Virus record (IMG/VR): IMGVR_UViG_3300032242_001353
Coordinates: 1-54,146 of that record
Source: a virus
DNA: 54,146 nucleotides
Reading direction: 5' to 3' (one strand)
In this document: piece by piece, positions 3,492-47,064 of the stretch
Layout of the letters: each line of letters starts with the position of its first letter
How positions within the stretch are numbered: the stretch's first letter is position 1
Made by a program: the position numbers and the translations under genes
Notes under the pieces: model-generated
What the model was told of the DNA's origin: nothing
The model's input: only the letters and a program-made list of their open reading frames with translations
Database searches by the model: none

Positions 3492-4351
3492 TAAAATTCC
3501 TCAATTACGTCCATCAGATTTTTTAGTTTATACTCAATAAAATAGGTTAGGAGTTTACTCTTTGGTGCAGGCTTTGCTTCTTCATAAGTATTTATGATTT
3601 TCTCTTTTATCTCTAGTGGAATATTTTTAAGGTCAATCAATATTTGATTACGTGAAAAACCAGTTTGTGCTTCACTTGACCATTTATCCATGTTCTCTTT
3701 CAACAATTTATCCATTACACCTTTAGTAATAGGTTTTTGTCTTAGGTCACGGACAAAACAATCTGATGGTGAGAAGATATTTGGTATACCATCACCTTTG
3801 TCACCACGAATAATCTTTTCATTTAGTTCAGCCAATGGATTATCTGATTTGACAAATTTCTTCTGTGCAGGGTTATATTGCTTAACTGTGTACTTGCTAT
3901 GGCCATTATATTGTTGTAATTGTAAAAAGTCACCATCACTGGAAATAATTACAATATCTTCATGCATGATGTGACGAGGAACTAAAGTACCAATAACATC
4001 ATCGGCCTCAGCACCTTCAACATCAATTACTTTATAGGGGAAGTTTTCTTTTAGTTCAACTTTCATTTTAGCTAGAATGTCAAAAATCAAGTGCCAATCT
4101 AAATCAGACTTTTCACGTGATTTCTTACGACCTGCTTTGTAGAAAGGAAAATATTCTTTACGCCAGTATTTACGGTTATCACAACATAGTACAACTTCAC
4201 CATATTCCTTGCGGAAGGTTTTCATGTGGGTACGTATAATGTTCAATACCATATGACGTACCAAACCTTCTTCAATCTTGACACCTTTCTGTCCGGCAAT
4301 TTGTGCCATTATACCAGAAAGTAATACTTGGTTTAAGTCAACGAGAATCAT
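3491..4351 (-). CDS. rnh: T4-type RNase H / 5'-3' exonuclease
   Basis: A FEN-family nuclease that removes lagging-strand RNA primers. The metal-binding acidic residues appear in order: VDLN at the N-terminus, CCDNRKYWRKEYFPFYKAGRK (bridge/arch segment), EGAEADDVIG, SSDGDFLQL and GDKGDGIPNIF (the GDxGDGIPN helix-hairpin-helix signature). The 286-aa length matches the T4 enzyme (about 305). It acts with gp61/gp41, gp43 and the clamp encoded elsewhere in this window. A sigma-70 promoter lies just upstream at 4381-4409. Confidence 0.95.
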   Translation of the reverse strand: MILVDLNQVLLSGIMAQIAGQKGVKIEEGLVRHMVLNIIRTHMKTFRKEYGEVVLCCDNRKYWRKEYFPFYKAGRKKSREKSDLDWHLIFDILAKMKVELKENFPYKVIDVEGAEADDVIGTLVPRHIMHEDIVIISSDGDFLQLQQYNGHSKYTVKQYNPAQKKFVKSDNPLAELNEKIIRGDKGDGIPNIFSPSDCFVRDLRQKPITKGVMDKLLKENMDKWSSEAQTGFSRNQILIDLKNIPLEIKEKIINTYEEAKPAPKSKLLTYFIEYKLKNLMDVIEEF

Positions 4352-4380
4352 AACAAACTTTCAATAGTTTCAGTCCGTCT

Positions 4381-4409
4381 ATATTACAGGCTTTTATTTA
4401 AAATGTCAA
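4381..4409 (-). promoter_or_regulatory. sigma-70-type early promoter
   Basis: Minus strand: TTGACA (4404-4409), 17-bp spacer, TAATAT (4381-4386). It is embedded in the last codons of the upstream ORF and drives rnh. Confidence 0.7.
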
Positions 4410-4725
4410 GCGTTTTTTGGATGAATTTTTCAGAGGTAGTTGTCTTTTTTGCAACCATGCCATACCAGCCTTGTGGTATTAATTGAGAGATATATTCGAG
4501 GGGTTCGGAGAGTATTGCATCAAAATTATCTAAGTTAGTAAATGATTCTCCACCCTCTTTAAAAAGGATAACATGCCACCAATCACCCATTATACTTCCT
4601 GGTATTTTTTCACCAGGATTCTTATATAACTGACCTTCTATTTTTAAGGCCTTTTCTTCATAATCAGGAAAGAATGTAAGACAATCATAATCTTCGCTTT
4701 GTATATCATGGAACATTTCTAGCAT
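4384..4725 (-). CDS. Hypothetical protein, 113 aa
   Basis: The start is placed at ATG 4725 because AAGGA lies five bases upstream; a longer in-frame start (4755) would run further into the preceding gene. The protein has a DIQSEDYDCLTFFPDYEEKAL N-terminal part and a central PGSIMGDWWHVILFKEG stretch. No family recognised. It overlaps the 3' end of the GIY-YIG gene, so translation is probably coupled. Its last codons contain the rnh promoter. Confidence 0.6.
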   Translation of the reverse strand: MLEMFHDIQSEDYDCLTFFPDYEEKALKIEGQLYKNPGEKIPGSIMGDWWHVILFKEGGESFTNLDNFDAILSEPLEYISQLIPQGWYGMVAKKTTTSEKFIQKTLDILNKSL

Positions 4726-46458: not shown

Positions 46459-46526
46459 TGGAGCGGAAACTTGGATTCTCACCAAGACACATGAGGGGTA
46501 CTCACGTGCGGTTAATACCTTTCCGC
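46459..46526 (-). ncRNA. tRNA-like element without a normal anticodon arm
   Basis: 68 bases ending in encoded CCA. The acceptor GCGGAAA pairs perfectly with UUUCCGC (7 bp), discriminator U. A T-arm is present (CUUGG/CCAAG) but the loop is UGAGAAU instead of UUCGAAU. The D-arm is reduced to GGU-AUUA-ACC. In place of the anticodon arm is an 8-bp stem (CACGUGAG/CUCAUGUG) with a 5-base loop UACCC, with no standard 7-base loop. Spacing to tRNA-Arg is seven bases, the same as between true tRNAs here, so it probably shares their transcript. Confidence 0.7.
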
Positions 46527-46533
46527 ATAAACT

Positions 46534-46695: not shown

Positions 46696-46769
46696 TGGTG
46701 CCCCTTGATGGAATCAAACCAACGATTGATGCTTACAAGGCAACTGTTATATCATTTAACTAAAGGGGC
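46696..46769 (-). tRNA. tRNA-Thr(UGU)
   Basis: Acceptor GCCCCUU/AAGGGGC, discriminator A, CCA encoded. The anticodon loop CUUGUAA gives UGU. One U-U mismatch in the anticodon stem. Confidence 0.9.
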
Positions 46770-46980
46770 AAAATAAAATGCTCTGACGGACCCCGGAGGT
46801 AATTATACCGCATCAGACTCGCTTTTTGGAACTCGTCATCACGCACGGCCTCCACCCTCTCCCCGACGGGTCCCGTTCTCGCATTGCCAGCGCACTTTCG
46901 GTTTAAAGTGTACCACCCGTGAGAGTCACCTCACTTCTCATCCTGCGGGTCACAGTATCCGCTAACAAAGCGGAACGGCT
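46770..46980 (-). ncRNA. GC-rich structured spacer inside the tRNA array
   Basis: These 211 bases between tRNA-Tyr and tRNA-Thr hold no convincing ORF, tRNA or CCA end. About 56% GC by hand count (100 of 180 over 46801-46980), while the flanking genes are about one-third GC. Hairpins seen on the transcribed strand: CCGCU/AGCGG (46959-46973), ACCCG/CGGGU (46915-46950), CACUUU/AAAGUG (46893-46910) and UCUGAUG/CGUCAGA enclosing GGUA-UAAU-UACC (46782-46817). A possible -10 (TATAAT) lies within. Candidate structured noncoding RNA; no family recognised. Confidence 0.6.
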
Positions 46981-47064
46981 TGGTGGGTAACCAGGGAATC
47001 GAACCCCGTATGCCGAAGCGCCTGATTTACAGTCAGGTGTAGTCACCAATGCTACTCGTTACCC
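46981..47064 (-). tRNA. tRNA-Tyr(GUA)
   Basis: Class II tRNA: acceptor GGGUAAC/GUUACCC, anticodon loop CUGUAAA gives GUA, a long variable arm (GCGCUUCGGC region) and encoded CCA. Confidence 0.92.

Follow-up and report, generated by a model that had tools for sequence, protein, structure and literature searches.

The phage element described here is, judged by the covariation of its relatives, a conserved, structured noncoding RNA gene, and it represents a previously unlisted RNA family, the family, its fold and its swappable arm being new as far as Rfam 15 and the open literature show. With moderate confidence we read it as a single-copy gene of about 200 nt, accessory in aquatic T4-superfamily phages, whose product would be a folded RNA of phage translation islands that acts in trans and carries an exchangeable arm. 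A literature search, with subscription papers and supplements outside its scope, returned no paper describing the RNA and no match to its sequence strings. Phage tRNA islands are already known to hold structured RNAs whose role is unclear.

The element lies in a stretch of viral DNA of 54,146 nucleotides (IMG/VR record IMGVR_UViG_3300032242_001353, positions 1 to 54,146), which was analysed at its full length and is called the window here. The original prediction described a GC-rich segment (56% of 180 bases) bounded exactly by tRNA ends, free of ORFs and tRNAs and matching nothing known, and on all these points the measurements, the Rfam scan that it had called for and the literature agree with it. 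ARAGORN places 46770-46980 as the exact gap between tRNA-Thr (tgt; 46696-46769) and tRNA-Tyr (gta; 46981-47064), both on the minus strand and both recognized by the Rfam tRNA model. The minus strand is also the sense strand of the RNA; tRNA-Tyr is directly upstream and tRNA-Thr directly downstream on the transcribed strand. The GC content of the 211 bases is 54.5% compared with 35.6% for the window, and the GC maximum of the whole 54 kb falls here, the richest 211-base stretches starting at 46808-46834. No ORF of 60 or more amino acids overlaps 46770-46980, and no tRNA or tmRNA is found inside the element by ARAGORN or Rfam. Rfam 15 returns only tRNAs at the gathering score across the window and nothing credible within 46770-46980 even at E<=10. 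Folded as a single sequence the segment reaches -74.2 kcal/mol (z -1.55), only modestly better than shuffled sequences, of which 16 of 200 are equally stable, and relatives were therefore needed to decide. The element proper, about 200 nt as defined by a covariance model (R1) and by the boundaries of 144 members, occupies 46779-46978 on the minus strand, and 46770-46778 is an AU-rich spacer before tRNA-Thr. R1 matches the window at 46778-46988 with 210.8 bits (E 6e-63), a score that is not independent, as the window copy is one of the 62 sequences used to build the model.

Relatives were found by gene neighbourhood and by sequence pattern. Three IMG/VR contigs (L002-L004) were reached through a nearby ORF. 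L004 holds a copy with 98% identity despite a rearranged neighbourhood, the copy following a tRNA-like RNA and not standing directly before tRNA-Thr, and L003 has the same flanks as L004 without the element. An exact pattern of 20 core bases matched 64 IMG/VR contigs and a second pattern at least 119; nearly all of these matches align over their full length, with changes that keep the stems, and two of them (L079 and L155) were rejected as members. Model R1 finds about 178 loci in IMG/VR including the window, a total that is a lower bound and in which the conservation of the 19-20 pattern bases is overstated, because members were found by exact patterns; some member contigs may also be different assemblies of one phage. 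Stops in all three sense frames of 135 of the 144 members rule out a coding gene. The mean GC content of the element is 52.8% compared with 40.7% for the surrounding loci, and it is the higher of the two in 143 of 143 cases.

The comparison of these relatives carries the case for a structured RNA. In alignment A2, composed of 62 members less than 90% identical to each other, 96.3% of pair cells hold standard pairs, compared with 81.1+-0.4% after reshuffling of the partners and 34-49% with a slid partner, the slid control being biased in favour of the structure since this was drawn from the same 62 sequences. Changes on both sides occur in at least one sequence for 32 of 48 pairs, double-changed cells number 405 versus 103+-8 in shuffles, and none of 500 shuffles attains any of the observed covariation measures. 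RNAalifold, given no input structure, proposes 38 pairs, 27 of them with compensatory changes, and an earlier version of our structure gave the same covariation picture. The original prediction was to stand or fall by covariation in related phages, and this speaks strongly for a structured RNA. Its number of hairpins, four, fell short: the model has five local hairpins (P1-P5), the long-range elements P6-P8, a pseudoknot and a likely second one.

Read from the 5' end on the minus strand, the order is P1, P2, P3, the sequence GGUGGU, P4, P5, the P6-P7 domain with its P8 arm, and the tail AGCA. Hairpin P1 (46958-46974; 46974-46970 with 46962-46958) has all five pairs double-changed in some member. 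P2 (46943-46955; 46955-46951 with 46947-46943) is paired in 98.7% of cells with three pairs double-changed, and its loop ACC makes pseudoknot PK1 (46915-46950), in which 46950-46948 face the first GGU (46917-46915). PK1 is well supported: ACC/GGU becomes GCC/GGC, ACA/UGU, AUC/GAU or GUC/GAC in different members, at least four compensated alternatives. P3 (46919-46934; 46934-46931 with 46922-46919) follows with four of four pairs double-changed in some member, and P4 (46893-46910; 46910-46906 with 46897-46893) with four of five. The P4 loop (46902-46900) probably pairs with the second GGU (46914-46912) in a further pseudoknot, PK2 (46900-46914), which is 98.9% paired, almost invariant and altered in two members only (L070 and L168). 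P5 (46880-46892; 46892-46890 with 46882-46880) shows a CG/UA exchange in 15 of the 62 sequences, and beside it lies a lone pair, 46883-46876 (U-A in 89 and C-G in 10 of 100). The long-range helix P6 (46783-46875; 46875-46868 with 46793-46783), seven of whose eight pairs are double-changed, encloses P7 (46865-46854 with 46800-46794), which is 100% paired with CG, UA and AU exchanged at one pair. The variable arm P8 (46808-46848) has a covarying base (46848-46845 with 46811-46808) and an apex at 46844-46812. The 3' tail AGCA (46779-46782) corresponds to the nearly invariant columns 267-270 of A2. A mutual-information scan added the lone pair next to P5 and two P6 extension pairs. Another short helix, P0 (46977-46975 with 46876-46874), has partial support, being 85.5% paired and covarying to some extent, but excludes the P6 extension and the lone pair, for which the support is better; the conflict might reflect a conformational switch or be a matter of alignment.

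The P8 arm is exchangeable: 117 distinct RNAs carry 80 different arms. Arms of 31-59 nt recur unchanged on cores that share as little as 53-56% identity, and copies with identical 5' halves can differ in their arms, a distribution which shows at the level of sequence that the arm has been swapped between divergent copies. Such mismatches of arm and core suggest that recombination often takes place within this RNA gene of 200 nt. L085 keeps only a short loop in place of the arm. At the base of P8 (around 46845-46839 and 46817-46811 in the window) a GUGAUG/UUGAUG internal loop recurs that could form tandem G-A pairs, and some members have GUGAGG/UUUCUG there instead, which could pair in the ordinary way.

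The setting of the gene changes as well. The RNA starts immediately downstream of a tRNA in 84 of the 144 members, at a distance of 1-4 nt from CCA, with 2 nt the commonest spacing and G, A or T as the base that follows CCA; the upstream tRNAs belong to at least ten different species, and every one of the 1598 tRNAs lying within 3 kb shares the strand of the RNA. Another 28 members lack a tRNA within 500 nt; most of these are flanked by unrelated protein genes, often starting just behind a stop codon, and some copies stand 17-27 nt before an ORF. Downstream are unrelated genes, tRNAs or other RNAs, with no constant class such as a riboswitch or leader would have. The neighbours are interchangeable, and the RNA is the constant. 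With ten or more tRNA species preceding it, unrelated ORFs around other copies and no constant downstream gene, the RNA appears to be independent of its neighbours.

Which phages carry this RNA? The carriers are aquatic T4-superfamily phages, some with genomes above 300 kb. Among 20 records searched whole (54-367 kb) every one has exactly one copy, and 19 encode a T4-type DNA polymerase (phrog_262); the polymerase of the window is 51% identical to that of Synechococcus phage S-BM3. When contigs were chosen by polymerase only, 3 of 19, many of which are fragments, carried the RNA, one of the three being a divergent member. The RNA is absent from two long relatives chosen in this way (G022, 167 kb, and G023, 133 kb), and because some relatives do without it, it is probably an accessory gene. 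In the collections searched the RNA is restricted to viral contigs. No credible member came from 84,980 bacterial and archaeal genomes scanned with two patterns: one pattern had zero matches, and the two matches of the other, with 9-13 bits over part of R1, were taken as chance in view of this low partial score, one of them (L186) lying apparently within coding sequence. Five BLAST queries against 50,697 phage records gave no homologue, only fragments of at most 45 nt with E above 0.1, the longest of which (Dolichospermum phage Dfl-JY45) fails the R1 model, and one query against plasmids gave no match; divergent homologues could escape both pattern scans and BLAST.

The same phages carry a permuted tmRNA (RF04321), the two-piece type, often in the same tRNA region; its gene is distinct from the element and has its own coordinates in these records. 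It scores above the Rfam cut-off in 16 of the 20 carriers (for example L095 3059-3603, with ARAGORN tag ANDEQFALAA, and L016 8312-8586) and also in 7 of the 19 polymerase-selected contigs, including relatives without the RNA. A specific link between the two genes was thus dropped, as the tmRNA marks the phage group and not the RNA. Six of the 20 carriers encode ribosomal protein S21. A weak match to permuted tmRNA (22.7 bits, model positions 36-95) overlaps both the element and the last part of the tRNA before it in two records, G019 (110204-110425) and G032 (4315-4536), and is probably due to chance. The element itself has no tRNA fold and no tagged tmRNA by ARAGORN or Rfam, nor a tmRNA match at the gathering score, and does not belong to either class.

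RNA C and RNA D of phage T4 are structured RNAs of the tRNA cluster whose function is unclear. Like the present element they are small stable RNAs of a T4-type tRNA cluster (species 1 and 2 RNA; AF158101), but they measure 139 and 119 nt, and a search of T4 69.5-74.5 kb with R1, filters off, gave a best score of 3.1 bits outside the RNA C and D genes, which gives no support to homology. GOLLD and ROOL are structured phage RNAs with pseudoknots, often near tRNA islands, and their function is likewise unclear (PMC12286853). The RNA family described here shares with them the pseudoknotted structure and the setting, whereas they are much larger, many GOLLD RNAs exceeding 800 nt (PMC12286853), and form cages, of which an RNA known here from sequence alone gives no sign. 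The original prediction hinted at kinship with GOLLD and ROOL; their Rfam models give this no support, with no match at the gathering score or at E<=10 in the window and none in 26 member or related loci. RNase P, SRP, 6S, riboswitch, T-box and intron models likewise have no match above the gathering score overlapping the element in the window and the member loci. A TnpB-type guide RNA (omega-RNA, HEARO) is disfavoured, as PF07282 occurs in none of 20 carrier records and Rfam gives no HEARO match, IscB-specific domains being outside this search, and so is a Y RNA partner of Ro60, as TROVE (PF05731) occurs in none of the 20, some of which are fragments.

What does the RNA do? In the reading we favour it would be transcribed together with the in-line tRNA genes, probably, or in some phages with protein genes. 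Where it lies in a tRNA array, it would be set free as the tRNA before it matures at the 3' end and RNase P cuts the tRNA behind it, a plausible route for the window and the 84 tRNA-adjacent members. This route cannot be general, because 28 of 144 members have no tRNA within 500 nt, and it counts against our reading that copies between protein genes would need another one. Once released, the RNA would most likely act in trans as a pre-folded molecule, its rigid pseudoknotted core (P2-PK1-P3, P4-PK2, P5, P6-P7) binding a protein, the ribosome or another translation component, with the exchangeable P8 arm added to this binding core. A role linked to translation is our leading guess from the genomic context, in which RNAs of translation abound, and since the tmRNA also occurs in relatives without the RNA, the link is drawn from location only. 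More tentatively, the RNA could be a new class of phage machine whose core works on host translation or defence while the hypervariable, swapped arm sets specificity, or else a new catalytic RNA of tRNA operons, a proposal we consider possible but less likely than not.

The accessory distribution and the arm swapping make an anti-defence role the main alternative to one in translation. The RNA would be a decoy that ties up a defence protein of the host such as a nuclease or toxin, and P8 swaps would follow host variation. A gene carried by 3 of 19 polymerase-selected contigs and missing from two long relatives, confined to viruses in the collections searched and exchanging a hypervariable arm between divergent cores, is what such a decoy might look like. 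We nevertheless consider it unlikely: the core is conserved far beyond a simple decoy's need, no defence gene or target is linked to the RNA, and the arm that should track the host is nearly absent in L085.

Somewhat less probable still is a self-cleaving RNA that would detach itself from the tRNA before it as a functional analogue of theta ribozymes, its job being to make the tRNA 3' end. Theta ribozymes offer a phage precedent: they are HDV-like, 56 nt in the example given, present in gut phages, flush with tRNA 3' ends and mostly behind tRNAs without encoded CCA (PMC10879173). The position of 84 members directly behind a tRNA, mostly 2 nt after CCA, and the nested pseudoknotted fold suit this idea. 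The variable junction of 1-4 nt with G, A or T after CCA and the 28 members far from any tRNA do not, and the RNA, at about 200 nt with five hairpins, is unlike the 56-nt theta type; its upstream tRNAs encode CCA, unlike most theta-associated tRNAs (4.5%; PMC10879173). A theta or HDV-like ribozyme proper would have a nested double pseudoknot and a fixed 5' cleavage site, and is not supported given the different fold, the varying junction and the absence of any Rfam ribozyme match.

That the RNA regulates the following gene in cis, as a riboswitch, leader or T-box-like sensor of tRNA, seems improbable to us. The copies 17-27 nt before an ORF would fit, and so would the mutually exclusive helices P0 and P6 extension, for which conformational switching as in a regulator is possible; the GGGUGG of the RNA, which we take to resemble the T-box sequence, is a lead. 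Against this, the downstream neighbours are unrelated genes, tRNAs or other RNAs, Rfam gives no T-box or riboswitch match, and the second UGG-type site (GGU 46914-46912) is occupied by PK2. We give least credit to the idea of selfish or mobile DNA, for instance a degenerate intron or the gene for a transposon's RNA component, which could account for the many different sites, for L004 with and L003 without the RNA between the same flanks and for the exchanged arms, but not for exactly one copy per record, the lack of PF07282 in all 20 carriers and of intron or HEARO matches in Rfam, and a position between genes and not inside them.

Whatever its role, the RNA adds to phage tRNA clusters a further family unrelated to GOLLD, ROOL and T4 RNA C and D, and extends the RNA set of aquatic T4-like phages beyond tRNAs to a permuted tmRNA and the family found here. 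Its small size suits structure work and chemical probing, and its many members suit comparative analysis; with an alignment, a pseudoknot and a covariance model at hand, a 200-nt molecule makes the role of tRNA-island RNAs a testable question.

Other RNAs appear to share these neighbourhoods. Among 150 Rfam matches listed, no family but tRNA falls in L003, L004 or L005. At 46459-46528 on the minus strand the window has a tRNA-like molecule missed by ARAGORN and Rfam, in which GCGGAAA/UUUCCGC forms an acceptor-like stem with UCCA after it, a hairpin resembling a T arm has the loop UGAGAAU, and the anticodon-like stem is long; it is about 90% conserved in L002-L004, and an exact degenerate pattern matches only these three relatives. 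A tRNA-like sequence ending in CCA, without an ARAGORN call, lies at 3413-3505 of L003 and 615-705 of L004, in the latter directly upstream of the element. Recurrent stretches free of tRNA calls (L003 2500-3140, L004 1-350, and downstream of the element in L005, L074, L057 and others) resemble further structured RNAs (e.g. ATTGAAGCACATTAAAGATAGGGTCGTAGCGG).
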